DNA of 64,000 nucleotides from a virus. A program made the translations under genes and the position numbers. Shown piece by piece: positions 5,708 to 57,700 of this stretch (positions within the stretch are counted from its first letter, which is position 1; each line of letters starts with the position of its first letter). The notes beneath the pieces are model-generated. The model was not told where the DNA came from, did no database searches, and saw only the letters and a list, made by a program, of their open reading frames with translations. Where the stretch lies: the IMG/VR virus record IMGVR_UViG_3300040758_000214, positions 79,061-143,060 of that record. The stretch is one strand, 5' to 3'.

Positions 5708-8700
5708 TTATTTTTGTATTCCAATTACTGTAAGATAATTATGTAAAAGTTTTACAGTTTCTGGACATCCATCTATGACTTTTGTTTCTTTATGATCAGA
5801 ATCAATCATTTGTTTAATCCATTGGTTCTTCTTATCAATGCAATCAGACTTTGTAGTTAAGATCTCTCTTAAATTTTCGGTTGCATCTTGCGCTATTAAG
5901 CAGGCGAGTTCCATTTCGCCCGCGCGTTGGCCACCAGGAGGCTTTAAACCCTTATTTAAAATTCCTTTTCGTTTTGTATTTCCACCTCCAATTGGTTGTA
6001 GAGTCTTTTTCATATACAGACCAATTCCTCTTGCAGTCATTTTGCTTTCAGCAATATGAAGCATACGAAAAAAGTACATCCAACCACATGCAATCATATT
6101 CTCAGTAAAACAATCAAATTCAGGGAGATAAACTTTTTGCTCATATTTACTTCCAGTGAATTCCATTGCAATTTTAAGCATTTCTTTAGTACATGATTCA
6201 AATGGGGGTTGAATTATTGTTAACTCTTCAATAAATTCTTTAGTTACAATTAAGGGGACTCTTTCTATAAATTGACTAGAATACCACTTTCCTTTTGTAT
6301 TATCTATCATGGAAATAAATGTAATTAAATAACTCTTTATATCATCTTGAGATTTATCAGAATCTATCATTTGAATTAATTGCTTCTTTAAATTTTCTAA
6401 GGCTAATCCTAAATGTAATTCAAATATTTGTCCGATATTCATTCTAGATGGCACACCTAGAGCATTTATACAAATATCAACATGTCTTCCATCTTCTAAT
6501 CTTGGCATTTTATCATGTGGAACAATTCTTGAAATTACTCCTTTATTTCCATGACGATTTCCTATTTTATCTCCTACTGCAATACTTCTTGTATATACTC
6601 CATACATTTCTACATACATTCCATTAATTTTCTCATTTTTACTTTTATATTTTCCGGTATGAGAAAATTTATCTAAATCATGATCTCTTATAAATTGTAA
6701 AGCTTCATCCTTTGGTAATGAATCATAAATAGGTTTTTGTAATTCTTTTTCATATTCAATTTGACTTTGAATTTTCTTTTCAACCCAATCATTAAATTCT
6801 GGTATTTCTTTATTCCATTCATTTGCATAAATATTAACTTCATTTACACCAACGACTTGTTTCTTAATTGTTAATGGAATAGCTTCTTCAAAGATTGATG
6901 AAAAGTCCATTGGTCCACTTGGTATTTCTTTTAAAATTGCATAAGGAGTTCCTGCTTTAAGAACTTCAAAATTTAAAGGAGATTTACTTTTTGTTGCTTT
7001 TGGATTTGGTAAAGGTTTATAAATCTTTTTCTTTGTTCTCCTTTCTTCTTCTAATTCATCTTTAGTTCTATAAGGAAGATTAAATAAAACTTTACTCGGT
7101 GATAATGTAAATGATAAATCTATAAAATGAATAGAAGTAAAGACGTCTTTTCCATTTATTAATCTATCAGATATTAAAATTCCATCTTCAAAATTATATC
7201 CATCATATGATGTAACTGCAGTTAATAAATTTTTACCAATATTTATTTTACCATTTTTACAAAAACTAGATTCAATTAAAATATCTCCGGCTTTAAATTT
7301 ATCTCCAACTTTAAAATAAATTGAATCAATTAAATCTAAATTTTCAACATATATTTTTCTATAAAAAGTATCAAAAATATCTACGGTTTTATCATCATAT
7401 ACTACAATCATATGATTAGAATCTAAAAATATTACTTCTCCATTTTGTTTAGCTCTTCTTACAAATTGAGTTTGATCTGTATATAATCCTTCACATCCAC
7501 TTTGAATCATTGGAATATCAAAATCTGTAAGACAAATTGATTGCCTCATTTGAGAAGATGCCATTTGTAATCTTGTTTGGTCATCATGTTCTAAAAATGG
7601 AACTAATGATACAGGAATTGAAATAGGTTGTAATTCTAAATATTCATCTGTAAATTTTAAATTTGAGTCAAGAATAGTATTTGGAATTAAATTTTGTAAT
7701 ACTCCACAATTTTCTCTATCTGGAGTATCTACAGGACATACTCTACCAAACATAGAAGGGGTAATATCTCTTAAATGTTTAGGTACATTTTCTCTATCAA
7801 ATCCTCCCGGTCCAACTAAACTTGTTCTTGATAATTTTGTTAATTCATCAATAGGATTAATTGAAAAGTCAAATTGGACTATATCAGACACATTACAATC
7901 TGATAATATCTGAGTTGAATTAATATTAAATTTAGGAGATTTGGCAGTTCTATTTGACATACAAAAATCAAATATCGTTTTAGAAACCTTAGCTAAAACG
8001 ATATATTCAAAACATCTAATTCTTTTATTAATATAATTTGTATCATCTATTTTTTCAGATTGTATTACATCAATCAATTCTTCTAAAATAGATTGAGTTC
8101 TAAAGAATTTAGAAGACATAATATCACACTTTAATATAATATCTAAAGCATATATCATATCTTGACCTTTTTGTGTTGGATCATATTTAGAACTAAATTT
8201 TCCTAGTTCTTTAATAAAATCATCTTGTGAATAATCTTCTGATGTATCATAATATCCTTTTAAATCATAAACTAATTTTTCAATCAATGTGTTTGGTGAT
8301 TCATATTCCATATCTTTTAAACCAAATTTTTGATCTAAATAATCTAATCCATAATATGATAATAATAGAAGAGAAAGAGGAACTATTTTATTTAAAAAAC
8401 TCACTCTAATAAAAGGTTCCTCTTTAAATTCAATCACTGTAAGAGTTGCACAATTAGTTCTAATCTTAATTGTTTTTCCCCTTGTTACAACAGGAATATC
8501 AAACAATTGAAATAATGGAATCTTTCTCTTTCCATTAATATAAAAGTAATTCCCATCTATTAATTTTGGAATAGACATTGATAAATTTATTTCTGCAGTA
8601 AGTTTTTTAAATTTAATAACAATATTCTTTTTTAATGTCCTATCCAATTCTCCTTCCATTGAAAATCTATGATCCCTTATCCCAAAATCAACAATTTCAA

Positions 8701-8830
8701 AACCAAGTTCTTCAGCTGGAACTAATATTTGTCTAATCTTATTTTCTAAATCCTGATATTCATCTTTTCTAATTGTAAATATATTTTTGTTTAAATTGTG
8801 CAATTTGTAAAAAGGATTTATTAAGTCCAT
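5708..8830 (-). CDS. RNA polymerase beta subunit, set 1
   Basis: A 1040-residue homologue of RpoB, shorter than the bacterial protein (about 1340). Diagnostic segments in the right order are the CPVDTPDRENCGV region, GYNFEDGILISDRL, GDKIGNRHGNKGVIS near residue 750 with the active-site lysine and histidine, and the C-terminal PPGGQRAGEMELACL. In phiKZ-like phages beta is split into two polypeptides. Here it is one chain. Its partner beta' lies upstream in the transcript with one small gene between. It would form the catalytic core of a phage RNA polymerase. No alpha subunit is seen. Confidence 0.95.
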   Translation of the reverse strand: MDLINPFYKLHNLNKNIFTIRKDEYQDLENKIRQILVPAEELGFEIVDFGIRDHRFSMEGELDRTLKKNIVIKFKKLTAEINLSMSIPKLIDGNYFYINGKRKIPLFQLFDIPVVTRGKTIKIRTNCATLTVIEFKEEPFIRVSFLNKIVPLSLLLLSYYGLDYLDQKFGLKDMEYESPNTLIEKLVYDLKGYYDTSEDYSQDDFIKELGKFSSKYDPTQKGQDMIYALDIILKCDIMSSKFFRTQSILEELIDVIQSEKIDDTNYINKRIRCFEYIVLAKVSKTIFDFCMSNRTAKSPKFNINSTQILSDCNVSDIVQFDFSINPIDELTKLSRTSLVGPGGFDRENVPKHLRDITPSMFGRVCPVDTPDRENCGVLQNLIPNTILDSNLKFTDEYLELQPISIPVSLVPFLEHDDQTRLQMASSQMRQSICLTDFDIPMIQSGCEGLYTDQTQFVRRAKQNGEVIFLDSNHMIVVYDDKTVDIFDTFYRKIYVENLDLIDSIYFKVGDKFKAGDILIESSFCKNGKINIGKNLLTAVTSYDGYNFEDGILISDRLINGKDVFTSIHFIDLSFTLSPSKVLFNLPYRTKDELEEERRTKKKIYKPLPNPKATKSKSPLNFEVLKAGTPYAILKEIPSGPMDFSSIFEEAIPLTIKKQVVGVNEVNIYANEWNKEIPEFNDWVEKKIQSQIEYEKELQKPIYDSLPKDEALQFIRDHDLDKFSHTGKYKSKNEKINGMYVEMYGVYTRSIAVGDKIGNRHGNKGVISRIVPHDKMPRLEDGRHVDICINALGVPSRMNIGQIFELHLGLALENLKKQLIQMIDSDKSQDDIKSYLITFISMIDNTKGKWYSSQFIERVPLIVTKEFIEELTIIQPPFESCTKEMLKIAMEFTGSKYEQKVYLPEFDCFTENMIACGWMYFFRMLHIAESKMTARGIGLYMKKTLQPIGGGNTKRKGILNKGLKPPGGQRAGEMELACLIAQDATENLREILTTKSDCIDKKNQWIKQMIDSDHKETKVIDGCPETVKLLHNYLTVIGIQK

Positions 8831-9220: not shown

Positions 9221-11920
9221 TTAAAACTCCCCTAATAATATTTTGTCAAAAATTCCCTCATAGTTTCCAGAATTTAAAAGTCCCTTAATTATTGCAGATT
9301 TGGGATTCGAAAAAGCAATAGCAAGTAACCATGACTCATTTGTTGGAGCACTTTGGATTGAAAGGAACTTCGGTGTAACTTTATCTCTATTTTTCATTAA
9401 TCTCCATTTATAATGTCCGACCCACATTAATTGCGATACAATAGATTCAAAATGAACATGAAGTATTCCTTTGCTATTATTATAAACATCGAATAAATCA
9501 GAAACTAAATCTTCAGCAGTTTGGTCTTTTTTAAATTTATGGAATAAATCAGACACAATTTTTAAATCACTAATTACATCTGATTGTTCCATATCAACAG
9601 ATCCTTCTTTAATATTTGCTACACCTGATAAGTGGAAGGTACGTAAGGTCAATTGTGTAGTGCACTCCCCCAAAGATTGCGCTCCAAGGATACCTATATA
9701 CTTACTATCATTTAATTTATGAGTATTTCCATAACATGTTAGACAAATTTCTGGTGATGTGCAATATATTGGGCTTCTCACTTTTAACATTTGACCAACT
9801 AATTCTGAGCATTTATTTAATGTAATTAATTCTAATTTATCATTATTTAAATAATATTTATTCACTAACATTTTTGCTTTATTTAAATTTTTAACATATA
9901 CATTTAAATAATCTTTAGTTTCGCAATCCTTTAAATTTTTATTTAATAAAAGATTAACTCCAGTGAATATTAATTTTCTTGATAAATATCCAGAAGTTCC
10001 AGTATTTAAAGCAACATCTAATAATCCTTTTCTACAACCATAAGTTGAATTGAAGAATTCTTCTTCTGTTAATCCATCAAGTAAATTATTTTTAATTGCT
10101 TTAGGATATATTTCTCCATTAAAATTAGATACATATCCTCTGGTTAAAATCATTTGTTTTGCCTGATCCCAATTTCCACGAGCTCCTGAGTCAATTAAGT
10201 ACGAATACTCAAAATTTTCTCTTAATGAATTTTCAATTTCAGGACTTGATAATTTATTAATTTGAGTCATTATATCATTAGACTCATAAATTGAATCTTT
10301 CAATTCTTGAACATTTGGAATTTCACAATGATTTAGAGAAATAGTAGGAGCAAAAATTGTTGCATATTTGAATCCAACTTCTTTAATTTTATCTAGAGTT
10401 TGAACTGTTATATTTTCTGGCCAATTATTTTTAATACCATTTAATATTTTTATCAGATTCTTTTTTATAACTATTTCATTTATTACCGGAAAATCTTCTG
10501 GCAAACATTCATTAAAGATTTTCATTCCTTCTGTAATTTCAATTCCTTTATATACAACTTTATTTAATAATGATGAAATTTTATTAGATGTAAGTGCATA
10601 TAATCCCAATATTATATCTTGAGAAGGAACTGTAGCTAAACTTTCATTTGCAGGACTTGTTAAATTTTTAGTAACTATTAATTTATCTAATGTTTCTTGT
10701 TTTGTCTTTTCTGTGATGGGAATATACACAGCCATCTGGTCTCCATCAAAATCTGCATTGAATCCTGAGCAAACTAATGGATGAATTTTAATAACATTAT
10801 CTAATGAAGTTTTAATTTTAAATCCACAAATACTAAGTCTATGAAGAGATGGTTGTCTATTTAACAAACATACTTCACCTTTAACAATTTCAGAGATATC
10901 ATTGAATAAATCTGGTTTTTTCAATTCGATACAATTATCTATAAAATCAATTGCATCATTTAATAATTTAAATTTACTATGTTCTATTAATCTTTTTGCT
11001 AATGGTAATTTGAATAACTCTAAAACCATAACATATGGAAGAACACATTCATCTAAATTTAATTTTGGATCAGGAATAATAACTGCTCTTCCTGAGAAAT
11101 CAATTCTTTTACCTAATATATTTCCTCTTATTAATCCTTCTTTTTTACTAAGTTTTGTAACTATATGCGCATATAATTCATTTACATCTTTTTGTAATTG
11201 CCTAAAATATTGATAATAGAATTGTTTACTATGTTCTATATCTACAATTGTATTTTGCATTGTTTCTTTTTTTGTTAAAATTTGCATATAATATCTATTT
11301 ATTTCATCTACAATTTGATTATTCTTTTCAGATCCTTTTGCAGCTGGTCTTAAATCAGGTGGTAAAACTATAATATTTCTTATTAATAATGTATCAATAT
11401 TATCTCTAATTAATTTCCATGCAGGAATATCATCTGCTAATGCTATTGAAATTCCATTAACCATTTCATAAATTGCTTCAGTTCTTTCCCATATTCTACA
11501 TCCTGCTTTTACATTTTCTAATTCCTTTACTACAACATAATCATCTCCATCTTTATATAAAATACTTTTTTCATCTTTTAATAATAAGTCTATAGAATTC
11601 ATTAAAGATGAGCCACCTAAAGTGGTAAGTAAATCATAAAATACTGGATTCATAACTTTAATTGGAATTACAATTTTGGCAAATCTTCTTCTTCTTTCAT
11701 AACTATTTACAATATCAACTTGACATACATTACATGCTCCACCATCTGCTCTAGATATACCAAAGTAAGTTCCACACTGACAAGTATAGTTTCTTAATGG
11801 TCCAAAAATCTGTTCAGAAAATAAACCATTAGGATGATAATTCTTTTTGTCCATCATTTTAATGGATGAAACTTCCTTTAAATTTTCACAGAAAGCATTG
11901 ATGTTTAGAAGAGTTGGCAT
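9221..11920 (-). CDS. RNA polymerase beta' subunit, set 1 (complete, compact)
   Basis: An 899-residue RpoC homologue with all landmarks in one chain. These are an N-terminal zinc finger (CQCG near 49 and CNVC near 64), a KRIDFSGRAVI segment, the catalytic NADFDGD at residues 388-394, and a second zinc-binding site (CTSPEICLTCYG). Then come the trigger-loop helix (AQSLGECTTQLTLRTFH) and a C-terminal ESWLLAIAFSNPKSA segment equivalent to the last bacterial beta' helices. The bacterial protein is about 1400 residues, so large internal parts are missing. Confidence 0.95.
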   Translation of the reverse strand: MPTLLNINAFCENLKEVSSIKMMDKKNYHPNGLFSEQIFGPLRNYTCQCGTYFGISRADGGACNVCQVDIVNSYERRRRFAKIVIPIKVMNPVFYDLLTTLGGSSLMNSIDLLLKDEKSILYKDGDDYVVVKELENVKAGCRIWERTEAIYEMVNGISIALADDIPAWKLIRDNIDTLLIRNIIVLPPDLRPAAKGSEKNNQIVDEINRYYMQILTKKETMQNTIVDIEHSKQFYYQYFRQLQKDVNELYAHIVTKLSKKEGLIRGNILGKRIDFSGRAVIIPDPKLNLDECVLPYVMVLELFKLPLAKRLIEHSKFKLLNDAIDFIDNCIELKKPDLFNDISEIVKGEVCLLNRQPSLHRLSICGFKIKTSLDNVIKIHPLVCSGFNADFDGDQMAVYIPITEKTKQETLDKLIVTKNLTSPANESLATVPSQDIILGLYALTSNKISSLLNKVVYKGIEITEGMKIFNECLPEDFPVINEIVIKKNLIKILNGIKNNWPENITVQTLDKIKEVGFKYATIFAPTISLNHCEIPNVQELKDSIYESNDIMTQINKLSSPEIENSLRENFEYSYLIDSGARGNWDQAKQMILTRGYVSNFNGEIYPKAIKNNLLDGLTEEEFFNSTYGCRKGLLDVALNTGTSGYLSRKLIFTGVNLLLNKNLKDCETKDYLNVYVKNLNKAKMLVNKYYLNNDKLELITLNKCSELVGQMLKVRSPIYCTSPEICLTCYGNTHKLNDSKYIGILGAQSLGECTTQLTLRTFHLSGVANIKEGSVDMEQSDVISDLKIVSDLFHKFKKDQTAEDLVSDLFDVYNNSKGILHVHFESIVSQLMWVGHYKWRLMKNRDKVTPKFLSIQSAPTNESWLLAIAFSNPKSAIIKGLLNSGNYEGIFDKILLGEF

Positions 11921-12179: not shown

Positions 12180-12348
12180 CAGAAACTCCTTTAACCTGCT
12201 TTTCAATTAATTTTTTTGTACGAATCGAAAAAACATCTACCATCATTCCGAAAGACTTATTCACAAACTTTTTTAAACTATCAGAAATATCATCAATTAA
12301 TTCATGAGCTGTTGTTTCTAATTTACTTTTTTCTTTATTATCAGGCAT
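12166..12348 (-). CDS. Hypothetical helical protein (60 aa)
   Basis: The start ATG overlaps the stop of the previous gene (ATGCCTGA) and follows GAAAAGGAGAAAT. The product is an amphipathic helical protein with a Lys-rich end. No family is recognised. It is translationally coupled to the possible E2-like gene at 12341-12844. Confidence 0.55.
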   Translation of the reverse strand: MPDNKEKSKLETTAHELIDDISDSLKKFVNKSFGMMVDVFSIRTKKLIEKQVKGVSDEKK

Positions 12349-12844
12349 ATATCAATTTCTCCTTTTCTACATCATTTTCATCATAACCATTTATGTTCCA
12401 AATAAATCTTTTATTATTTTTTTGTTTTTCTTTATGAATTCTAAAACTAAAATTTTTTGGATCTGATATATTAATAAATTCAAAACAATTCCAATATGAT
12501 TTATAAAAGGTATTATAATTATAAGTTAAGAATTGATGTTCTATTATTTCTAAATCAGAATCTATTTCAAATAAATTTTGTTTAAAGAATTCTTGTATAC
12601 AAAATATATTGGTAACTGGATTTTTATTTGGGTGAGGATTTTTAAACATTATAGATTCCAAATATCCATTTTTTAATTTTATCTCATATTTATTAATAAT
12701 GAATTTATAAGGTATTTTTATTATTTCATATTTTTTTTCATTCTTAATTAATATTTTAGGAATAATGAAACAATTAACTTTTATATGAATGATATTGATC
12801 TTATTTTCAACACTTGCTTTAATCAATTCTATTTTGTTTAGCAT
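12341..12844 (-). CDS. Possible divergent E2-like (UBC-fold) protein
   Basis: A 167-residue protein, rich in Ile and Lys. In the middle it has a strand pair (KYEIKLKNGYLESIMF) leading into HPN at residues 71-73 and a cysteine at C82 (HPNKNPVTNIFCI). In E2 enzymes an HPN motif precedes the catalytic cysteine by a similar distance. The gene is 14 bp from a ThiF/E1-like gene, the natural partner of an E2. The rest is too divergent to place by eye. It could instead be an unrelated protein. Confidence 0.35.
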   Translation of the reverse strand: MLNKIELIKASVENKINIIHIKVNCFIIPKILIKNEKKYEIIKIPYKFIINKYEIKLKNGYLESIMFKNPHPNKNPVTNIFCIQEFFKQNLFEIDSDLEIIEHQFLTYNYNTFYKSYWNCFEFINISDPKNFSFRIHKEKQKNNKRFIWNINGYDENDVEKEKLIYA

Positions 12845-12858
12845 AAGTATATGTCTCC

Positions 12859-13731
12859 TTATGCCGAAATAGTTTGAGTAATAATTTTTACTAAATATTT
12901 ATTCTGTCTTGCTAAAGGCATACAAACTCTATAAGTCATATTTTTATCTATTAACATTGATAAAATCTGTTCTCTAACATCATCAACATCTTTTAATTGT
13001 GTCATTCTTATTTCTTTTATATTTTCTTTTTTTTCATCTTTTAGAGAAAATAATATTGGAAACTTTTTATTTCTTTCTATAATATCGGATACATGAAGAT
13101 CTAAATCTTCTAATATTTCATCACTATCATGACTTTCAAATATAACATTGACTCCATCATTATAATTTTTAAATTCATAAAAGTCAGATTTTGTTAAATC
13201 TAAATCAATTGAATATAATTTTTTTAAATCTACTAATTCTTTAATCATTCCACTTTCAAAATATTGAGTAGCCATTAATGCAGCCATTTCAATTTTAGAT
13301 TTACTAAGTTCTACAGAATATCTTGTATTTACTAATGGCTTATATGTAATATTTTTTCTACAATCTAAAACTAAAAAATCCGAATATTGAAAATACATTT
13401 TAACATCAACTCTATTATTTCTATTATTAAAATTATCAGTGCAATCTATAATTAAATCAATATTATTCGGGATTATAGTATGATCTATAAAATTTGTTTT
13501 AGAAACAATAACTTTAATATCTTTATAATCTCTAAGTATTTTATTTCTAATTGGATAAACTTTTCCTTGCCCGATATCATTTTGATTATATAATGAATTA
13601 ATCAAATTTTTCTCATTGACAATATCTGAATCATATAATAATAATTCTTTAACACAACCAGATTTAGCTAAATGATATGAAAAGAAACTCCCCAACGATC
13701 CAACTCCAGCAATTAAAATCCTATTAAACAT
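12859..13731 (-). CDS. ThiF/E1-like adenylating enzyme (second copy)
   Basis: A 290-residue protein with a Rossmann nucleotide loop GVGSLG (residues 9-14), an acidic pair D34/D36 followed by NLIN, and a strand-turn IIDCTDN at 94-100 followed by an arginine-containing NNR. These are hallmarks of the ThiF/MoeB/E1 family, which adenylates the C-terminus of ubiquitin-like proteins. The C-terminal 150 residues do not match the standard ThiF tail and no CxxC zinc site is visible. It sits upstream of the possible E2-like gene, and downstream of the main ubiquitin-like cluster. Confidence 0.8.
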   Translation of the reverse strand: MFNRILIAGVGSLGSFFSYHLAKSGCVKELLLYDSDIVNEKNLINSLYNQNDIGQGKVYPIRNKILRDYKDIKVIVSKTNFIDHTIIPNNIDLIIDCTDNFNNRNNRVDVKMYFQYSDFLVLDCRKNITYKPLVNTRYSVELSKSKIEMAALMATQYFESGMIKELVDLKKLYSIDLDLTKSDFYEFKNYNDGVNVIFESHDSDEILEDLDLHVSDIIERNKKFPILFSLKDEKKENIKEIRMTQLKDVDDVREQILSMLIDKNMTYRVCMPLARQNKYLVKIITQTISA

Positions 13732-13741
13732 AATACTCCTT

Positions 13742-13975
13742 CTACTGCTTGAAATTCTCCATCCGTTCTACAATATCATTAATTTCGCCTTGTAAAAACT
13801 TAACTTCTGACAAACTAAGTCTTCCTAGTTTTAAAAATTTTCCGTCATTTGATATTCTTGTCAATTGTAATTTAGGGGCTCCACCCTTATAAGAATAAAC
13901 TTCACCTTTAATATTAACATCATCTTCTAAAGGTTTAATTTCAAATAATAATTTGTCATCTTCTTGATTATACAT
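13742..13975 (-). CDS. PC4-like (transcriptional coactivator p15) protein
   Basis: A 77-residue protein with a GEVYSYKGGAPKLQLTRI segment, then DGKFLKLGRLSLSEVKFL and a terminal helix. This resembles PC4-family ssDNA-binding modules, where a curved sheet is followed by one helix. A role in phage transcription or ssDNA binding would fit. The assignment is by pattern only. It lies between the second E1-like gene and a terminator-like hairpin. Confidence 0.4.
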   Translation of the reverse strand: MYNQEDDKLLFEIKPLEDDVNIKGEVYSYKGGAPKLQLTRISNDGKFLKLGRLSLSEVKFLQGEINDIVERMENFKQ

Positions 13976-13995
13976 TTATATCTCCTATGTTTAAT

Positions 13996-14025
13996 GAAAA
14001 GGGATATTTTTACATATCCCTTTTC
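13996..14025 (-). terminator. Hairpin, likely transcription terminator
   Basis: A perfect 12-bp stem (GAAAAGGGATAT with its complement) and 6-nt loop lie between the genes at 13742 and 14046. The 3' arm ends in CCCTTTTC, so the U-tract is partly inside the stem. It could equally act as an RNA-stabilising hairpin. Confidence 0.5.
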
Positions 14026-14045
14026 AATTTTATTAAACAACTTTA

Positions 14046-14507
14046 TTATTCGGAATAGATATCTATATGATCAGGCATGTATTCACTTTTGAATTGAAAA
14101 TATTTTGCTGCTACTTTTATGGGATAACTCTTTGGAACATCTATTTTTATTCCAGATTTATCATTTTTCTTTGCTGGACAAAATAATAAATTATTTTGAA
14201 TGGCTTCTTGTGCAGCTCTTTCTAATTTTTCAGAATCTGAAATAATAATTTTTTCAATCCAAAATTCAACATTCCTATCAGGGATTATTTCATATGAATT
14301 TTCTCCGCTCATTAAAGCTTTCATTGCTCTTCCAAAAGCAATATTTCTAGATTTCTTTCTAATATGATTATCTAGAATTGAACAGATAGAAATTCCCCTT
14401 GCAATTAATTTTCTATCTGCATCTTCAATTTCACATACTGTAAATGCATTATTTAGTATGTCAGTTTTTTTATATGAATATCTTATTCTTAGATTACTCA
14501 CGTCCAT
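14046..14507 (-). CDS. Hypothetical protein (153 aa)
   Basis: A 153-residue protein flanked on both sides by strong hairpins, so it may form its own short transcript. A central segment (RNIAFGRAMKALMSGE) is probably helical, and the C-terminal part has several strands. I do not recognise a family. Its place beside the ubiquitin-like gene makes it a candidate substrate, adaptor or regulator, but this is context only. Confidence 0.55.
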   Translation of the reverse strand: MDVSNLRIRYSYKKTDILNNAFTVCEIEDADRKLIARGISICSILDNHIRKKSRNIAFGRAMKALMSGENSYEIIPDRNVEFWIEKIIISDSEKLERAAQEAIQNNLLFCPAKKNDKSGIKIDVPKSYPIKVAAKYFQFKSEYMPDHIDIYSE

Positions 14508-14532
14508 ATCTATCTCCAGACTATGTTTTTTA

Positions 14533-14562
14533 GGGATGCATTACTTTAATATAATGCATCCC
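14533..14562 (-). terminator. Strong hairpin after the ubiquitin-like gene
   Basis: An 11-bp perfect stem (GGGATGCATTA with its complement, 8-nt loop) lies 16 bp beyond the stop of the ubiquitin-like gene. There is no U-run on the minus strand, so it may be a processing or stability element, or a terminator for a phage polymerase that does not need a U-tract. Confidence 0.5.
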
Positions 14563-14578
14563 TTCCAATTAATAAAAA

Positions 14579-15223
14579 TTACCCTTTACGGCCACTAGTT
14601 TTCAGATATTCAAGATTATCATTTTCCTGAATAACATAATTCAATCCTACTTCTTTTCCACACGCAAGGGCACGAGGAATATTGCTACCAATATTCAGAA
14701 CTTCCTTAAGAAACTCTGCAACCTGTCCAACAGTTTTTCCGATTACATTAAAATTCCCAGAGGAAGCTCCACAAGAAACATGAATAGTGGATTTAATTCT
14801 ATCGGATGAAGAATTAGGATTAACAACAGTATTCTTCATTGTTATTTCCATCGTAGAAATACCACCAATTGACGGACCAGTAACTGTGGATCTTACAGGA
14901 GCACTAGCCACACCAATCTTAGAAAGAATAGCTGCAACTAATTCATCCTTAGGTTTTTTACTCATTCCAGAAATACTAAGTTCCTGACAAATTTCACGAA
15001 GATCAGAATTGGTCAACTCTAGAAGACCTTCTTTTGTATAACGAGGAGCTGTAGCAGAAGAAGTCTGATTGTTGGCGGTTGAACCAGCCTTGGATAAAAT
15101 TGCTTCCATGATAACATCTTTACGTGCTTTACTCATTCCAGTGATACCAAGACTCTGGCAAATTTCACGAAGCTCACCATTGGTTTTTTCAACTAATTCG
15201 CCATAATTATAAGTTCTTGCCAT
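14579..15223 (-). CDS. Ubiquitin-like protein with two SAP-like repeats
   Basis: A 214-residue modular protein. Residues about 8-45 and 64-98 are two similar helical repeats (LREICQSLGITGMSK and LREICQELSISGMSK, each followed by a helix) of the SAP/HeH DNA-binding type. After a Ser/Pro linker, residues about 130-214 look like a beta-grasp domain. The visible elements are a first strand, a helix (KTVGQVAEFLKEVL), then CGKEVGLNYVIQENDNLEYLK and the tail SGRKG. The NG-type turn, the L-x-x-x-D-x-L-E strand and the glycine terminus match ThiS/MoaD/ubiquitin-like proteins and recall PRTRC protein C, which I remember as ending in GTKG. It is encoded next to the E1, JAMM and E2 genes, so it is the likely conjugated modifier. 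The SAP repeats suggest it acts on DNA or nucleoid. Confidence 0.75.
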   Translation of the reverse strand: MARTYNYGELVEKTNGELREICQSLGITGMSKARKDVIMEAILSKAGSTANNQTSSATAPRYTKEGLLELTNSDLREICQELSISGMSKKPKDELVAAILSKIGVASAPVRSTVTGPSIGGISTMEITMKNTVVNPNSSSDRIKSTIHVSCGASSGNFNVIGKTVGQVAEFLKEVLNIGSNIPRALACGKEVGLNYVIQENDNLEYLKTSGRKG

Positions 15224-15316
15224 TTGTAATTCTCCTATTCATTTTTTGGTTTTTACTACAATTAAAGTTATCCTTGTATAGAAAGGATTCTTAATTTAAA
15301 ATTGTATAATTTGGTC

Positions 15317-16006
15317 TTACTTTTTCAATTCTCTAGACTTTGAATCTACTTTCATTGTTGTAATGTCAAAATATGCTTCTGAGTTTTTATAATTTTCCTG
15401 CAATACATTATAAAACGCACAGCACATTAGTGTTGCCGCAGCTAAATTGGTAAAATATAATTGAGGTTCACCAGCTGCAGATAATTCTTGGCAACTCATT
15501 TCATCTGGTGATTTATCATCAGGTTCATCAATTTCTGGATGATAATCAGTCAAACTTGGCGTTAAATCTTCACCTCCTTTTCTTACATATATTTGAACAT
15601 TACCATCTACATAATCATTCCCCCCGGAGATTAATGTAATGTTGTTCAAACTTTTTGAATAATCTGATACAAGTTTTCTAGTTTTATGATTATCAACCGC
15701 TAAAAATACAGTATCACCATCTTCAATCAAAGTATCAATTACATCTTTATTTACATAAAATGGAAATGATTTAAATTCAATATTATTAAATTTAGATTGA
15801 AGTTCAAATGATTTCACTTGTGCCTTATTTCCCATATTGGAAAAATCTTGTCTTTCAAAATTTTTGGTTTCATATTCATCACCATCAATTAAAGTCACAT
15901 TTGCTTTGGTATTTGAATAATTAATAAACCTTGAAATTTTTTCTGATAAAATAGATCCAATTCCTCCTAATCCAATAATTTTAATCGTATGGCCAGAGTG
16001 GTACAC
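15317..16006 (-). CDS. ThiF/E1-like ubiquitin-activating enzyme
   Basis: A 229-residue protein with the GLGGIG nucleotide loop (residues 12-17), D41-G-D43, the NFERQ segment (N49, R52) and a VDNHKTRK strand (D105). These are the standard E1/ThiF adenylation residues. C172 in MSCQELSAAGEPQLYFTN precedes a conserved N-x-A-A helix, matching the place of the catalytic cysteine in PRTRC-type ThiF proteins. Its start overlaps the JAMM gene by 26 bp, so both are probably translated together. It would adenylate the ubiquitin-like protein encoded 94 bp downstream. Confidence 0.85.
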   Translation of the reverse strand: MYHSGHTIKIIGLGGIGSILSEKISRFINYSNTKANVTLIDGDEYETKNFERQDFSNMGNKAQVKSFELQSKFNNIEFKSFPFYVNKDVIDTLIEDGDTVFLAVDNHKTRKLVSDYSKSLNNITLISGGNDYVDGNVQIYVRKGGEDLTPSLTDYHPEIDEPDDKSPDEMSCQELSAAGEPQLYFTNLAAATLMCCAFYNVLQENYKNSEAYFDITTMKVDSKSRELKK

Positions 16007-17168
16007 TTATAAGCTCCTCTGTTTCTATAATTTTACTACGATCATCTTTTTCTTTTTTGGTTATAAATGTATCATCTTTTTTGCATTTTTTAATCATACC
16101 TAATAATTCTTTTTCATCTTTAGCAAACTTTAAATTACATTTATAACATGGATTAAAATATTTAGATTGTTGTGATTTAATGGCAGATGATGATATAGTT
16201 TGAGGTAAATTAGGTGTATGAATAGTTTTCTTTTGATTATACTCATGATCATCTACACCACCATTAACTCTATTCATATACCTATAAAACCACATATCAT
16301 TTTCAAGGTCATCATTTATATTTCCACCATATCCACCATCACTATAAAAACTATATCCATTATTATGTTGTCCATATCCTCCAAAACTATAAGCTTTTCT
16401 GAAATTATATTTCTCAACATTTATTAACCATTTTGGATCACATTCTACACTTGATAAATGTTGTGAAATTATATATCCTGTTGTAGTTTTCATTTCCTTT
16501 TGATAAACTTTTTCTTTCCCAATTACTTCATATTTTGGTCTAAACATTGACTTAAAATATTTTGTATATTCAGTTTTATAAACTCCATCAATATAATCCA
16601 ATGGATCAACTTCAACTCTATAACCATTTGACGCTATGGATGCTACAATTTTATGAGTATCAGAATCAATTTCTCCAACAGTAATATGCAAACCATCAAA
16701 ATCTTCTTCATCATGAGTATCTGTTCCAGAGTGAAAGGCGCTGAATCCTGGATGACTATGAATTGAACATACTGGTTGATAATTTTTTATAGATATCTGA
16801 TAATTATCTTCCACATTAACACTTGCTCCTGAAACTGATTGCTCTGGAATATGCACCTTAAATGCCTTTTTCTTTGGATTATAATAAATAATTGCTAATC
16901 CTTCTGCTCTATGCCCATGATATACTTTTTTGAAAAAGTCAAATATTTGTGCATATATAATTCCAGGAATTTTTGGAATATCCATTGATGCATAACATCC
17001 AATATCTTCTAGAAATGATATATTTTTTACTGGAACTAAACTATCTATTAATCCCATTTTTTTCTTTAAATATACACCACCTTTAGCGATAATATAACAT
17101 ATATCGTCTTTTGGCATTCCTTGTTCTTTATCAAATGTATATACATTAAACATACTATTATTAGACAT
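15981..17168 (-). CDS. JAMM/JAB-domain isopeptidase (deubiquitinase-like)
   Basis: A 395-residue protein. It has a complete JAMM zinc-protease signature: E89 in HRAEGLAIIYYN, then H137-S-H139, S147 and D150 in SIHSHPGFSAFHSGTD (H-x-H-x7-S-x2-D). Such enzymes remove or mature ubiquitin-like proteins, and PRTRC protein A is of this class. The C-terminal half is not a known domain to me. It contains a Gly/Tyr-rich stretch (residues 255-285), a CYKC pair near 340 and a Lys-rich tail. The gene overlaps the E2-like gene by 8 bp and the E1 gene by 26 bp. Confidence 0.85.
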   Translation of the reverse strand: MSNNSMFNVYTFDKEQGMPKDDICYIIAKGGVYLKKKMGLIDSLVPVKNISFLEDIGCYASMDIPKIPGIIYAQIFDFFKKVYHGHRAEGLAIIYYNPKKKAFKVHIPEQSVSGASVNVEDNYQISIKNYQPVCSIHSHPGFSAFHSGTDTHDEEDFDGLHITVGEIDSDTHKIVASIASNGYRVEVDPLDYIDGVYKTEYTKYFKSMFRPKYEVIGKEKVYQKEMKTTTGYIISQHLSSVECDPKWLINVEKYNFRKAYSFGGYGQHNNGYSFYSDGGYGGNINDDLENDMWFYRYMNRVNGGVDDHEYNQKKTIHTPNLPQTISSSAIKSQQSKYFNPCYKCNLKFAKDEKELLGMIKKCKKDDTFITKKEKDDRSKIIETEELISVPLWPYD

Positions 17169-19707
17169 TGAAAAACCTCCAGTCCTTTCTATAAATTCTT
17201 GGTAAATAATCTATGGGAATAAATCCACTTAAGAAATTTGGTAAAACATAAGTATACGTAGATGGTGCTTTGGCATTGGATTCAATAAATCTTTGTGTAC
17301 ATATACCAGACAACTTTTTGGATGAAATATTTTGTGTAGCATAGGTATAAGAATCGCATAATGCTGATTGAATATCTATAGACTCTTGTTTTGTTAATAC
17401 CAATTCTCTAATATTATTTTTATCAATGATTATATCTCCCGGTTGAAATTTAATATGATCAGTATTTTCAAAAATTGTAACTTTTAATTTCTTATAAACT
17501 GGATCCTCCCTATTTACAAATTTAAAATTCTTTAGATTTTCTTCTTCCATCCAAATTGCAGAATAATTAGAAGTTAGAATTAAAGGATATTTATCTGTAT
17601 CAACTAATATTGCCATGACTAAATGTGTATCTTTCTTTAAGAATAATGGAATTTTATTTACAGTTACAATTTTGTCTCCAACTGAAATTCCATTTAGATT
17701 AGTTACACATTTCCTAACTTTCTCTACAGAAATTATCATAGATCTAAAATCAATGTATTCAATACTTTTTATATTACCTTTACAATCTACAGTATCAATA
17801 TACATTTTAAATGTTTCTTTACAGAAATTAAATCCTGTTATATTTCTATGAATAAACATTTCTGGTGGATTATCCCAATCAACATAAATAATATTATCTC
17901 CAATTTTAAAATCAATATTAAAACATAATCCTTTTAATTGTATAGAATTATTATCTTTTAAAATTTCAGATTTTACTATATCTAATCTTTGTTCCATTAT
18001 AATCGAATCATTATTTCTAGAATTTTTAATCATTAGAATAATATTATTATTAGTTATATATAATTTATGATCATTTGTAATTTGGCAAATACTTTCTTTC
18101 AAATCATTGATTATAATTGTATTTCCATATGAGAAAATTGAAAGATTTTCTCTTTCATTCTCAACATGAGGAGCTATTCTATTATCTATATCAGAATGCT
18201 TAATATGATATAAGTTTTCTCCTAATTTAAATTGTAAATAAAATATCCCCCTAATTATTTCTGCTTTTTCAAAAGTTATTATAGCATTTCCAAATATAAT
18301 TGATGCTCTAGTTCTTGATTTACCTTTATCTACATATAAGTTTCCTTTCTTAAAATTAATATTATTTATAGTTAAATCTTCTGGATTTATTATTTCTATA
18401 TTCTTTAATGATTCTAAAATATAATAATCAGTTCCAATTAAAAATTCTATTTTTCCTCTTCTATTACTTCTAATTTTCTCAATTTTCTTAAATTCTTTAA
18501 CTTCAGAATTTTTATCAATACAAATTATATCTCCTATTTTATAAATTATTCCATTCAATTCATACTCAGTTAAAATATTTTCTTTATTATATGTATTTTT
18601 TATTGCAGATAATAAAGAACTATCACTTATTTTATATTTAACAAATTCTCCTTTTGAATTCTCTAACATTACTCCACTTATAGTACTAGAATCTATAAAT
18701 GATTGTTTAGTTGCTGGATCTATTTTTATAGTCCCTAAAAATTCATAGATATAATGTTTTTCATCATTAATTACAATTTCATCTCCAATTCCTAATGCAT
18801 GTTCATCTGTGAAATAATGACTTTGACAATGTGATGTGACAGTTTTTGGATCTAATTTAACAGAAGGAATATTACATATCATATCTATAGTATCTTTAAA
18901 TAAATATGCTCCAGCATTATCAATATTACTTCTATCCCCACCATTAAAATTTCTAGTCAAATCTTGTATTTCTGAAATGATATTAAAATTAAATGTTTTC
19001 CATTTTGTAGAAAATATAAACATAGGATCAATTGATGTATTATATTCCCAATGTAAAAATGATGAAACTTCTGGTACATCATTATACATATTATAAACAT
19101 ATGTAATATCACCATTGAATTGATTAGCCCAAAATGCATTAATTAATTCTTCTACTTTTTCTCCTAATGATAGATTAGTATTTTTGGCATTATTTGGACC
19201 TAAACATACATGACCATTAGAGTCAAGATTTGTAAAATTTGCATGTAATAAATAATCATGAAATGATGACATTGGGTGTAATCTAAAAAATACTCTAAGT
19301 TCTTTAGGGCAATCATCCAAAAATGCAAGGAAGAAAACTACATATGGAAATGATAAATTAAAATAATAAGGAGGTTTATTTTTTAGAAAGTCGGAATAAC
19401 CATACTCTTTTAATCTTCCAGTTCGTCTTAAATTTTCTATAACAGTATCGAATTGTAAATCAACACAAATATTTCTTATAGCAGGAGGTTCTTCAATAAT
19501 TAAATATGTATAATTTTCAATTTGTTTGTAAAACCTACAGTTTCTAGGTAAAATATCAGATTGAATATTGTTTGAGGCATATAATCTATCATAAAAATCT
19601 TTAGTTTTAATATGTTTTACTTCTGAAAGAACATTAAATGTATCTGAATTTTCTGTTAATGGTTTTACTAAACGAACTTCATTTTGATTAATTAAAATAT
19701 GTTCCAT
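17161..19707 (-). CDS. E2-like conjugating protein with long beta-rich extension
   Basis: An 848-residue protein. The first 200 residues resemble the prokaryotic E2 family found in PRTRC protein B. The visible parts are YYFNLSFPYVVFFLAFL (110-130), then FRLHPMSSF (141-149) and the active-site-like loop LDSNGHVCLG with C168, followed by a helix (GEKVEELINAFWANQF). The remaining 650 residues hold at least five similar beta units with a G-D-x-I core (IGDEIVI, IGDIICI, IGDNIIYV, VGDKIVTV, PGDIII), suggesting tandem SH3- or KOW-like barrels. I know no E2 with such an extension. It is the first gene of the overlapping E2-JAMM-E1 trio. Confidence 0.7.
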   Translation of the reverse strand: MEHILINQNEVRLVKPLTENSDTFNVLSEVKHIKTKDFYDRLYASNNIQSDILPRNCRFYKQIENYTYLIIEEPPAIRNICVDLQFDTVIENLRRTGRLKEYGYSDFLKNKPPYYFNLSFPYVVFFLAFLDDCPKELRVFFRLHPMSSFHDYLLHANFTNLDSNGHVCLGPNNAKNTNLSLGEKVEELINAFWANQFNGDITYVYNMYNDVPEVSSFLHWEYNTSIDPMFIFSTKWKTFNFNIISEIQDLTRNFNGGDRSNIDNAGAYLFKDTIDMICNIPSVKLDPKTVTSHCQSHYFTDEHALGIGDEIVINDEKHYIYEFLGTIKIDPATKQSFIDSSTISGVMLENSKGEFVKYKISDSSLLSAIKNTYNKENILTEYELNGIIYKIGDIICIDKNSEVKEFKKIEKIRSNRRGKIEFLIGTDYYILESLKNIEIINPEDLTINNINFKKGNLYVDKGKSRTRASIIFGNAIITFEKAEIIRGIFYLQFKLGENLYHIKHSDIDNRIAPHVENERENLSIFSYGNTIIINDLKESICQITNDHKLYITNNNIILMIKNSRNNDSIIMEQRLDIVKSEILKDNNSIQLKGLCFNIDFKIGDNIIYVDWDNPPEMFIHRNITGFNFCKETFKMYIDTVDCKGNIKSIEYIDFRSMIISVEKVRKCVTNLNGISVGDKIVTVNKIPLFLKKDTHLVMAILVDTDKYPLILTSNYSAIWMEEENLKNFKFVNREDPVYKKLKVTIFENTDHIKFQPGDIIIDKNNIRELVLTKQESIDIQSALCDSYTYATQNISSKKLSGICTQRFIESNAKAPSTYTYVLPNFLSGFIPIDYLPRIYRKDWRFFNV

Positions 19708-19743: not shown

Positions 19744-20046
19744 TTATTTTTTAATATAGAATCTTTCTTTTGTTGGTGTTTCTAAATATTCAACTCTATC
19801 ATATGGAATACTTCTCCATTCTTTCTTTTCTAAATCAAAAACTCTAAGGATATTTTGTTTTACTAAATTTAATATTGCTGCTAAATCAACTTTTTTAGGT
19901 TGTTTTATTTTTGGAATCAAATCAAATTGTAAAGTACATTTCATCATCCTTATTGTTTTATCTTTTTTAATAAATCTAATTATCACTTCTGGTTGTGTTC
20001 TTATAATCTTTAAAAAATCAATTGCATTATTTATTGGTTCATTCAT
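19744..20046 (-). CDS. SH3-barrel phage protein (DUF2693-like)
   Basis: A 100-residue protein with the pattern VIIRFIKKDKTIRMMKCTL, LIP, and a closing VFDLEKKEWRSIPYDRVEYL. I recognise this from the DUF2693/SH3-barrel family common in phages. The function is unknown. It lies between the radical SAM gene and the E2-like gene with short gaps and is probably cotranscribed. Confidence 0.6.
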   Translation of the reverse strand: MNEPINNAIDFLKIIRTQPEVIIRFIKKDKTIRMMKCTLQFDLIPKIKQPKKVDLAAILNLVKQNILRVFDLEKKEWRSIPYDRVEYLETPTKERFYIKK

Positions 20047-20052
20047 ATCATA

Positions 20053-21078
20053 TTAAACTCCTCTTTTTTCTGTATGAAGTATTTCATCTTTATTATCGGA
20101 CAAGTTCGTGTGGAGAACACAGGTCCAATTACATCTAAGACAAAGTTCTTTCTTATCCCTTTTAATTAAATCTAAGAATAAAGGATTTATTTTTCCATCG
20201 TAATCCAAGAAATTTGTAACTGAAGCAGATGTAGTATGTCTTCCACCAATCCTGAGGCATAATCTACATGCTCCATCCGCGTCAATTGTGATATTTGTTA
20301 AATTCTTTTCTAATTCACAATCATATTCACTTGGTAATATCTCAAATAATTTTGGTAATAATTTATCTGCCATATGAACATCTAATTTTTCATCTATTAT
20401 TCTTTTAAATATGTCAGATAATTCTTTTGTTGGTTTGACTAAAACATTTTCATCTGTAACATTTGCAAAATCATAATATGGAGATTTAGAAATATCTATA
20501 AATGTAATATCAGATGATATTCCATTATTTGAAAGTTCTTTAACTAATGGATAAAGATATTTAACATTGTCATTATCAACTGTTATTTCTGCAACCAAAT
20601 CTTTTATTTTTCCTTTTAAACTCTTAAGTCTATTAAACCCTGCAATGCATTTTTTGTATCTATCATTGTCTTTAGATATATTAGGATCAAATATTAAAGG
20701 ATCTACGGAACTTGATAAACCTTTCACCTCTACTTTTTCTAAAAGATCATTTAATGATTTCTGAACTGAATTTGAATTATTTGTGATAATTGTATAATAT
20801 ATATCATTTGAATTACAATATGCAATTATTTGTGGTAAATCATTTCTTAATAAGGGTTCTCCTCCATAGAAAATATGAAAGCAATCTGGGTTATGTTTTT
20901 TTAGTTTAGATAATCCCTCAAGTACTGTTTTGGTTGACATTTCATTCTTATAAAAATGCCCAATATCAGGATATTCTCTTGGTTTATTTTCATAGTCAGA
21001 TACTATTCTACAGTATGAACATTTTAAATTACAACGTCTTGTTAATAACCAATTTACTATTCTTATTTTATCTGCCAT
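20053..21078 (-). CDS. Radical SAM protein with SPASM-like C-terminus
   Basis: A 341-residue protein with the radical SAM cluster motif C16-x3-C20-x2-C23 (RRCNLKCSYC), the SAM-binding GGEP segment (IFYGGEPLLR), and a cysteine-rich C-terminus. That end has CRLC near 267 and CLRCNWTC near 313, the hallmark of an auxiliary iron-sulfur cluster (SPASM or twitch). Such proteins often modify peptides or proteins. It is not QueE, whose motif spacing differs. It lies directly upstream of the ubiquitin-like cluster. Whether it acts on those proteins is unknown. Confidence 0.85.
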   Translation of the reverse strand: MADKIRIVNWLLTRRCNLKCSYCRIVSDYENKPREYPDIGHFYKNEMSTKTVLEGLSKLKKHNPDCFHIFYGGEPLLRNDLPQIIAYCNSNDIYYTIITNNSNSVQKSLNDLLEKVEVKGLSSSVDPLIFDPNISKDNDRYKKCIAGFNRLKSLKGKIKDLVAEITVDNDNVKYLYPLVKELSNNGISSDITFIDISKSPYYDFANVTDENVLVKPTKELSDIFKRIIDEKLDVHMADKLLPKLFEILPSEYDCELEKNLTNITIDADGACRLCLRIGGRHTTSASVTNFLDYDGKINPLFLDLIKRDKKELCLRCNWTCVLHTNLSDNKDEILHTEKRGV

Positions 21079-54718: not shown

Positions 54719-57700
54719 TTATCTACCAGTAAGCATTAATGCAATGAAATAACTTTTTATTAAATCTTGAACTGGAGCTGATTTTGCATCTCTATATTTA
54801 GTGGATCCATGATGAATAATATCATTAATCATTTCATTTTTAGTCATATGATCATCAGATAAAGGACCTAACATTTCTGAAAGTAATATTGGAGTATTAT
54901 ATGATATTAAAGAATATGTGTCCATTTCTCCTAGTTTTTGTCCACCTTCTCTTCTTTTACCTGATGTAGGTTGTAATGTCTTTCCTGTAACTGGGCCTGT
55001 AGATCTTGAATAAATTTTCATTTCTCCAATCTGTTCCAATTTCTGTATATACATATAACCAATAGGAACATCATTAGTTGTATATATATTATACTCAGGA
55101 ATTTTTAATTTATATCCACTTTTCAATCCTAATAAATCCATAGCCTGTTTTATTTGGACATGAGTAGGAGCTTGAAATGGTGGAACTATAATTGGAAAAA
55201 ATCCAGTATTTTTAATTTGACTAACCAATTGTTGATAATTAGAATGTGGCATTTTTTCTATTGCTAAAATTAATCTTGTACTATACATTTTATTTTTAGT
55301 ATTATCTAACAATGGTAATATTTTTCTTAATCCATCTGCAACCTTTTTCTGATCATTTGTTTGTACCATTTTAACAGCTAAATTTTTAGCTATTAATCCA
55401 ATATAGATTTCATATAATTGTCCTAAGTTCATTCTTCCTATTATACCAACAGGATTCAAAATCATATCAATTGAATCACCCCAAGGTGTTTTAGGCATAT
55501 CTCCATCTTTTTCAATTAAAGAGATAATTCCTTTATTACCATGTCTATTTGCTAATTTATCTCCTAGTCCGACTCTTAATTCTTGTTGAATTTTAAATTT
55601 AACTAAAACTCCAGCTATACTTTTATGTCGAACTGTAAATTTTTCTTCACTAATTCTTTCATGTTTTTTATTAGTTCGATCTATTAATTCTTTTAACATT
55701 GGAAATTTAGAAGATGGAAGATTACTATAAACTTGTATATCTACAATTATTCCACCTGGACTTTTTAGATCAACTTGTCCACCATGTATTTCTTCATATT
55801 CATCTTCATCCCCTTCTGAGTATCCTAATAATTGCTCTAATTCTCCAGCAGTTTTTCTTAATAAAGGTTCTCCTTTATGTGTCATTGTTCCCATTCTAGA
55901 AATATATAAAAGTCTATCTTTTTCAGAAATCAACATTTCAACTTCTATTCCATGAACAGATGTTAATTTATCCTCATTGATTAATCTTTCATTTATAACA
56001 ACACCATCCTCAAAATTATACCCTTTATAAGGCATTACAGCCACACATAGAGTTCTTCCCATAGAGATGGTACCTTGGGATACAGCACTACCTTCCGCTA
56101 AAATAGACCCTTGTTTAACTACCTGACCAAATCTAACTCTTGGAATAAAAATACTTAATGTATCTTTTCCGCTTCCTGATTTAAGATATACAGGTTCTAA
56201 ACTTATTTTAACTTCTCTATCTTTTCCTTTTACAATAATTAAATCATTTGATAAGAAACTAATTTTTCCATCAAAAGGAGCTTTCTTTATAAAATTGTCA
56301 GATAATACATTTGTTAATAATGATTCATATCCTGATTGAACAACTGGTGGTTCAGGATTTTTTAAAGGTAATGCTTGTCTAGCTTGATTAACTGCCATCA
56401 TTACTCTTGCCCCATCATTATTTTCAACGAAGGGAATTAATACTGAAGATGTAGATAATAATCCAGACTTTTCATCATCATTAATTGGTTTAGTATGAAT
56501 TAATCCTCTGGATGAAGTCAATGCAGCATTAACAGATAAATGTTGAACAATACCAATATTTTCCCCTTCTGGTGTATCAAGAGGATCTATATTTCCAAAA
56601 TAAGAATCATGAACATTTCTTGCACTAACTTGAATAGCTTCTTTTCCAGGAATACCCCCCACTGATTTACCAACTGGAGATAATCTTGTCATTGTAGACA
56701 TTTCTTCGATTGGATTAGCATATTCTATATCTGTAACAATTTCTGAATTAATAAATTCACTTAATATTTTTCCTTGTGGAATATTAAATTTAGCATTTTT
56801 ATTTCCAGATAAAACTTGCCCTTTATATTCTGTATATGCAGCATGAACTTGTTTTTGAACTAAATGTATTAATACTTCTGAATTTCTTATTCTTTGATGG
56901 TCTAAACTATTTCTATCAGTTGCATATCCTTCAACAACTTTAGTTGCCATATATTTCATTATCTCATTTAACTTATGAGGTAATTGTTCATTTGCTAAAA
57001 CTTGCTCAACAATTGGATCAATTAAATTTTCTTGATTTGATAATATCATATATGTTGACTGTGTTCTTCCTGTCAATTTAATAATAAAATCATTAAAAAA
57101 TTCTCTTGTTCCAAATTTCTTTTGAATATTATATGAGTATACATTAGCATGAACAAAGGATTCACAAATTTCCTCTTTAAGGGGTGTATTTATATCTGTG
57201 AATACTATATACTGTGTTTCATTTAAACGACAGGCATATGGAGTTTTTGCTTGTATTTTGTCAACTATTTGGTGACCTATCCCATACTCTCTTAACGTTT
57301 CATCAAATCCAAATAAAAAAAATAAACATATTGAAAATGGAATTGTATAATTTCCCATATATATTTCTAGATATTTTAATTTCCTAGTTCTCTTACTCCA
57401 TATATGAAAACTAGAATAAGAACTTGTAAATCTTGAATCATATGGTTCAGGAAATGTTATAGGATTTAAAACTATTTGATTAATTAAACATTTTCTTTGC
57501 CCATTAACTTTAAATGTACCATATGCATCTATTTTAGGTAAATCAATATTGATATGATGTATATTACCAAATTCATCTTTTAATGTAGCTTTTAATACTA
57601 TTTCATCACTCTTATCAAGTTCCGTATTTTTTCCAAGTTTTTCAACCATTTCAACTTTTTCAACTTTTAATGGAATATTAGCTTTAGATAAAACATTAAA

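Follow-up and report, generated by a model that had tools for sequence, protein, structure and literature searches.

A probable ubiquitin-like conjugation system encoded beside the RNA polymerase genes in a lineage of large phages

Results

Four core genes of a proposed ubiquitin-like conjugation set

We analysed a stretch of 64,000 nucleotides (hereafter, the window), which covers bases 79,061-143,060 of the 143,060-base IMG/VR virus record IMGVR_UViG_3300040758_000214, and for which an original prediction, made from the letters alone, had proposed a complete ubiquitin-like conjugation set in a phage: a modifier, an activating enzyme (E1), a conjugating enzyme (E2) and a JAMM protease. All four parts were recovered, with matches and residue conservation far beyond chance. 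On the minus strand the E2 gene (17161-19707) overlaps the JAMM gene (15981-17168) by 8 bp (17161-17168), the latter overlaps the E1 gene, here E1a (15317-16006), by 26 bp (15981-16006), and the modifier gene (14579-15223) follows; both overlaps and all four open reading frames (ORFs) lie where they had been predicted. That the set is phage-borne is borne out by the virus record itself, by two sets of RNA polymerase beta/beta' genes in the window (5708-8830 and 9221-11920; 54719-58843 and 59536-61878) and by the recurrence of the block in some 50 further viral contigs. The window also holds gyrase-like genes, an SbcC-like ATPase (names that, except for beta', come from reading translations) and six tRNAs, and such a gene content is that expected of a large phage equipped with multi-subunit RNA polymerases of its own.

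Relatives were gathered via synteny, starting from two close IMG/VR relatives, while a pattern search with the whole E2 returned none, its peptide patterns being too divergent. Profile and residue statistics below refer, unless other numbers are given, to 17 clade members (the close homologues), and gene-order statistics to 54 clade loci, deduplicated by contig. Since part of the E1 motif (DGDxxExKN) served to fetch loci, its columns are biased; residues C172, R52, Q53 and K61 are free of this bias.

E1a (229 aa, GTG start) matches ThiF (1.5e-18) and PRTRC_ThiF (4.7e-9), and also scores with ThiF/MoeB profiles. Residues R52, Q53, K61, D105 and C172 are invariant in all 17 clade members, and C172, which had been put forward as the catalytic cysteine and is a candidate for carrying a thioester, is retained in 20 of 24 distant homologues. 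The JAMM/JAB metalloprotease (395 aa; Prok-JAB 2.9e-5, PRTRC_A 7.2e-7) carries a complete metal site, and the predicted residues E89, H137, H139, S147 and D150 are conserved without exception in close (17/17) and full-length distant (22/22) homologues.

The E2-like protein is much longer (848 aa), with a Prok-E2 family D domain at its N-terminus (residues ~31-270), a predicted catalytic Cys168, and about 600 C-terminal residues that match no known family. Prok-E2_D matched this N-terminus in 14 of the 17 clade members (best E 3.5e-7, Pfam) and PRTRC_B in six, the window E2 alone being a weak PRTRC_B match. Both C168, the active-site residue originally proposed, and N160 are invariant in the clade alignment, the asparagine standing eight residues before the cysteine, which is the spacing of the HPN asparagine in classical E2s. 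The original prediction had named the fold of this N-terminus, along with that of the modifier, as its own refutation test, and it withstood both. A variant arrangement, with a tandem pair of E2-type proteins upstream of the JAMM gene, was seen in loci L018, L105 and L111.

The modifier and its precursors

The modifier (214 aa) had been described as a beta-grasp-like protein ending in SGRKG, which holds; what the description lacked is that the N-terminus consists of two Rho_N/SAP-like domains (Rho_N 3.4e-15), joined by a linker to the C-terminal beta-grasp. Evidence for this fold in 14579-15223 came from profile, profile-profile and fold comparison. Among clade members, the C-terminal domain matched TGS in 12/17, ThiS in 10/17 and Ub-Mut7C in 7/17. 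A profile-profile alignment (hhalign) with the modifiers of other phages, some of which match Pfam Prok_Ub, reached the GxKG end (95%, E 3e-8). Foldseek matches of its AlphaFold2 (AF2) model were all of the MoaD, SUMO, ubiquitin, SAMP1 or TGS type, with probabilities up to 0.98 and none reaching E 0.001. Taken gene by gene, the block thus contains an E1 adenylation domain with a conserved candidate cysteine, an E2 domain with, at the sequence level, a predicted catalytic cysteine, a complete JAMM metal site and a beta-grasp modifier with an exposed C-terminal glycine, each a mark of ubiquitin-like conjugation systems.

A direct tblastn search with the modifier gave no match in the named phages, and distant modifiers were identified by gene position and GxKG tails. 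Nearly all modifiers carry this tail, most commonly as GRKG or GKKG. About 20 have an additional C-terminal cysteine or a longer tail (GKKGC, GRKGC, GSKGC and, in one case, GRKGVILTK), and longer tails are also found in some bacterial copies. In Bacillus phage vB_BauM_KLEB27-3 (OM634661), a gene annotated as a hypothetical protein (L004:2736-3443) encodes four near-identical tandem 57-aa Prok_Ub units with AGVKG|M junctions, close to genes for a Cys-containing E2, a JAB protein and an E1. Its units differ from one another by 18-31 synonymous and 0-6 nonsynonymous codons, an excess of synonymous differences which indicates that they are kept by purifying selection. Polyubiquitin genes are laid out in this way, and such a precursor needs a processing protease. 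Judged from their sequences, the tailed precursors and this four-copy gene imply a predicted maturation by proteolysis.

Three other modifier-like genes deserve mention. Salmonella phage Arash has a modifier-like ORF of 66 aa with TGTKG at its end (L005:107-307), probably missed in the record because the annotated gp251c overlaps it in another frame. In contig L111 the modifier, lacking its tail, runs into the second E1-like gene (E1b, see below), which may be an assembly error or real. Near the E1 and JAB genes of a further locus, a protein (L033:6466-6903) has two tandem beta-grasp-like repeats, each with SQKAA at its end.

Further genes of the block

The span originally assigned to the system, 12341-19707, does hold the four genes, but two more within it had been overlooked, a second ThiF/E1-like gene and a gene for a small protein with an HPN motif and a cysteine. 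Radical SAM and WYL_2 genes, likewise overlooked, extend the block upstream to 21078. All these genes lie on the minus strand.

The second ThiF/E1-like protein (E1b; 12859-13731, 290 aa) matches ThiF over residues 4-104 (1.7e-15), as well as MoeB, MccB and Cap2 structures in the PDB, and is found in 54/54 clade loci. It lacks the R-Q pair of E1a. Its C-terminal tail is conserved across the clade, mostly as TGAA or GGA and as TISA in the window. This kind of tail led us to consider a ubiquitin domain fused at the E1b C-terminus, an idea we rejected, as there was no convincing Pfam match and a probability of 0.1% against the modifier profile. ThiF/E1-like genes of crAss-like phages, for instance crAss001 (MH675552), resemble E1b over the nucleotide-binding region.

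The HPN...Cys protein (12341-12844, 167 aa; H71 P72 N73 and C82) carries the motif of classical UBC-type E2s, with HPN and Cys invariant in 15/15 members and present in 47/52 of a larger set. Its AF2 model (mean pLDDT, the model's confidence measure, 79) has an E2-like order of strands and helices, and its best PDB profile matches are two E2s, at non-significant E-values (0.21 and 0.8); hhalign gave a probability of 8.5%. Foldseek searches of the model against PDB and BFVD returned zero E2 matches and, the fold match being absent, we do not accept it as a canonical E2.

The radical SAM protein (20053-21078, 341 aa; Radical_SAM 5.5e-10, rSAM_PapB 6.7e-14) has nine cysteines invariant in 45/45 sequences, made up of CX3CX2C and further SPASM-like C-terminal cysteines. 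The WYL_2 protein (19744-20046, 100 aa; WYL_2 1.4e-8) is a small Sm-like SH3 barrel present in 48/54 clade loci. Between the modifier and E1b genes the window has an accessory protein (14046-14507, 153 aa), shared by a minority of the clade at the same position (L008, L011, L014, L015, L020, L023, L024 and others), for which profile searches gave no convincing family match. After the block, in 54/54 clade loci, comes an RNA polymerase beta'-like gene (9221-11920), and a beta-like gene is next (5708-8830).

Conservation of the block and its relatives

In all 46 complete loci the gene order is the same: radical SAM, WYL_2, E2, JAMM, E1a, modifier, E1b, HPN/Cys and RNA polymerase beta'. In most of the other loci, of 54 in total, the missing genes are all at one end of the stretch, and upstream of the block most loci have an SbcC-like gene and a metallophosphoesterase. 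Identity to the window is 50-69% for E1a (16 relatives) and 51-72% for beta'; these ranges being alike, block and polymerase are conserved to about the same degree. A representative of the same phage type, L052, has been binned into a Thermoplasmatales metagenome-assembled genome (MAG).

Wider relatives occur in cultured Bacillus, Salmonella, Acinetobacter and Vibrio phages, and GenBank already annotates single components in phages ME3 and KLEB27-3. Scanning of genomes turned up E1 relatives in eleven Methylomirabilota MAGs and in several MAGs of candidate phyla, where the cassettes are mostly E2-JAB-E1-modifier, in the same order as in the phage block. On the four bacterial contigs examined, the flanks read in translation as thiolase, DnaK, DnaJ, DNA polymerase I and valyl-tRNA synthetase, and since these look like housekeeping genes the bacterial cassettes appear to be chromosomal. 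Four such cassettes (L055, L057, L067 and L070) have a standalone modifier ending in AGEKG, AGDKG or SGRKG, and one lies near DnaK/DnaJ. The E1 tree places the phage clade together with the Methylomirabilota and candidate-phylum proteins, apart from plasmid forms and most other phage forms.

Discussion

A probable conjugation cycle and its alternatives

We consider a phage-encoded ubiquitin-like conjugation cycle, comprising activation, conjugation and removal, to be the best explanation of this locus and a likely one, given the domain identities, the invariant predicted catalytic residues, the fixed gene order and the precursor tails observed in relatives. The fold matches of the modifier, the four-copy gene of KLEB27-3, the bacterial cassettes of matching gene order and the place of the phage clade next to them in the E1 tree also speak for it. 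The steps we infer, from thioester transfer to conjugation and the choice of targets, would be the following. JAMM would trim those modifier precursors that have residues past the terminal glycine (the window copy already ends in GRKG); E1a would adenylate the modifier C-terminus and carry it as a thioester on Cys172; and the modifier would then move onto the family D E2 at Cys168. Substrate binding is probably the task of the long C-terminal region of this E2. E2 would link the modifier to target lysines, so that the target would gain Rho_N/SAP-type nucleic-acid-binding domains, and JAMM would later take the tag off. The invariable position of the block ahead of the RNA polymerase beta' gene, and the Rho_N domains of the tag, make proteins that act in transcription or DNA handling, in phage or host, the most likely targets and our leading guess. 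A second activation arm may be formed by E1b, the HPN...Cys protein and the radical SAM enzyme, or these may modify the tag.

Several observations weigh against this explanation. The window's own E2 scores weakly with Prok-E2_D when taken alone (0.061) and, of the HPN motif, has no HP; the histidine that is described downstream of the cysteine in type 6d E2s is not invariant in the clade E2 alignment. The AF2 model of the modifier is of low confidence (mean pLDDT 65), no E3 was identified, the only grounds for the choice of targets are gene position and the Rho_N fusion, and the combination of ThiF, beta-grasp and JAMM proteins occurs in sulfur-carrier pathways too.

This last point leads to an alternative in which E1a makes a beta-grasp thiocarboxylate and JAMM frees tail residues, in the style of QbsD/QbsE or ThiS/MoaD, for a sulfur metabolite or a modified nucleoside, with the radical SAM enzyme as partner. 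It would account for TGS, ThiS and Ub-Mut7C being the modifier's best general matches, for the scores of E1a with ThiF/MoeB and for the radical SAM gene in the block of all complete loci. We nevertheless regard it as distinctly unlikely: every complete locus encodes a family D E2 with an invariant cysteine, E1a has none of the CxxC pairs typical of MoeB/ThiF, profile searches of the clustered genes saw no sulfurtransferase or rhodanese as partner of a ThiS/ThiF-type pathway, and a Rho_N-fused carrier seems poorly suited to small-molecule sulfur transfer. A role in virion assembly, where the system would tag structural or tail proteins somewhat as the JAB and ubiquitin-like proteins TAPK/TAPI act in lambda tail assembly, could be suggested by phage Arash, whose E2 (gp248c) and E1 (gp246c) homologues are labelled 'structural protein', as are genes around the capsid/tail genes there. 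However, that label may or may not come from mass spectrometry, and in the window clade the block adjoins SbcC-like and RNA polymerase genes rather than tail genes, which makes this role improbable.

E1-E2-JAMM systems serve bacteria in defence against phages (PMC10097602; reviewed in PMC12355090), and E1b scores with PADLOC E1-E2 models and with Cap2 structures, both of which would fit counter-defence, that is, a phage adding its modifier to host immune proteins, or removing modifiers from them, such as Cap2-primed CD-NTases or Bil-tagged phage proteins. We hold this to be unlikely, because a full modifier cassette of the phage's own, at a fixed site beside RNA polymerase genes and present in all clade members, is more in keeping with a core function than with a variable arms-race gene. 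Anti-defence genes are mostly patchy in distribution. Going beyond the conjugation cycle, we tentatively propose, as a possibility short of even odds, that a lineage of large phages with multi-subunit RNA polymerases runs a ubiquitin-like pathway with two arms. Two E1-like enzymes, the family D E2, the HPN/Cys protein as a possible minimal E2, JAMM and a radical SAM tailoring enzyme would together mark transcription proteins, of the phage or of the host, with a modifier that binds nucleic acids, and this would be a core step of infection.

Relation to known systems

The original prediction had pointed to plasmid PRTRC sets. These are the right kind of relative (PRTRC_ThiF and PRTRC_A both match, as given above), but the block is not a PRTRC system as such: bit scores fall far below the NCBIfam curated cut-offs (35.9 against 144.75 for PRTRC_ThiF, 28.9 against 101.8 for PRTRC_A and 13.6 against 131.45 for PRTRC_B), and the ParB of PRTRC systems was not found, with no ParB_N match in the 143-kb record, which may be incomplete. 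With PRTRC plasmid cassettes (TIGR03735, TIGR03736, TIGR03737; Prok_Ub PF14454; Prok-E2_D PF14460) the block has the E2 family in common, and matches that are weak but clear place its E1 and JAB in the same families too. Prok_Ub is matched by other phage modifiers of this kind; the architecture of the window modifier is different.

Another parallel is found in the bacterial type 6d operons, which, in the survey by Iyer, Burroughs and Aravind (2006, PMC1779556), have separate genes for a ubiquitin-like protein with a conserved C-terminal glycine, a JAB, an E1-like and an E2-like protein, the E2 having the cysteine without the upstream histidine and an absolutely conserved histidine after it. 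The window set shares the separate-gene layout and the E2 with Cys and without upstream His. It differs in that the post-Cys histidine is not invariant in the clade E2 and the alpha-helical fifth protein was not identified, and in being phage-borne, with a Rho_N-fused modifier, an E2 extension of ~600 aa and the additional E1b, HPN/Cys, radical SAM and WYL_2 genes. Type 6e, in the same survey, has tandem ubiquitin-like units, like the four in KLEB27-3; there the poly-ubiquitin accompanies an inactive E2 and a fused JAB-E1, whereas the Prok_Ub units of KLEB27-3 lie near genes for a Cys-containing E2, a JAB and an E1. For phages, the part of the survey consulted, which sets out bacterial types 6a-6e, gives only the lambda/T1-type TAPI/TAPK. 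Lambda TAPK (JAB) and TAPI (ubiquitin-like) resemble our set in being a phage-encoded JAB and beta-grasp pair, but they come without E1 or E2 and are tail assembly genes. The logic of E1, E2 and JAMM is also common to Bil (BilABCD) and to CBASS Cap2/Cap3, and E1b resembles Cap2-type E1 domains; in contrast to these host systems the window set is carried by a phage, has E1 and E2 as separate polypeptides, unlike Cap2, and shows no CD-NTase in the block.

The kind of system is thus already known from bacterial type 6d/PRTRC-like operons, and what is new is a core phage module with extra partners in a viral setting. A survey that compared 224 jumbo phage genomes (PMC7824862) makes no mention of ThiF, JAB, E1-like, E2-like or ubiquitin-like genes, and we found no literature linking PRTRC, phage and ubiquitin-like proteins, although coverage was thin for subscription papers and preprints, so a prior description is possible. 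Most of what is known of ubiquitin-like conjugation in bacteria concerns antiphage defence. If our reading of a conjugation cycle is true, a full cycle encoded by core genes beside the polymerase in ~50 phages would mean that bacterial viruses use such conjugation for their own program. The simple four-gene cassettes of Methylomirabilota, and phages in culture such as KLEB27-3, offer ready ground for testing the idea.

As to how the block might be expressed, promoter-like sites in the region were not more frequent than expected by chance. The largest gap in the block, between the 14046 gene and E1b, contains a 13-bp hairpin (13995-14026), which could be a terminator or a processing site.

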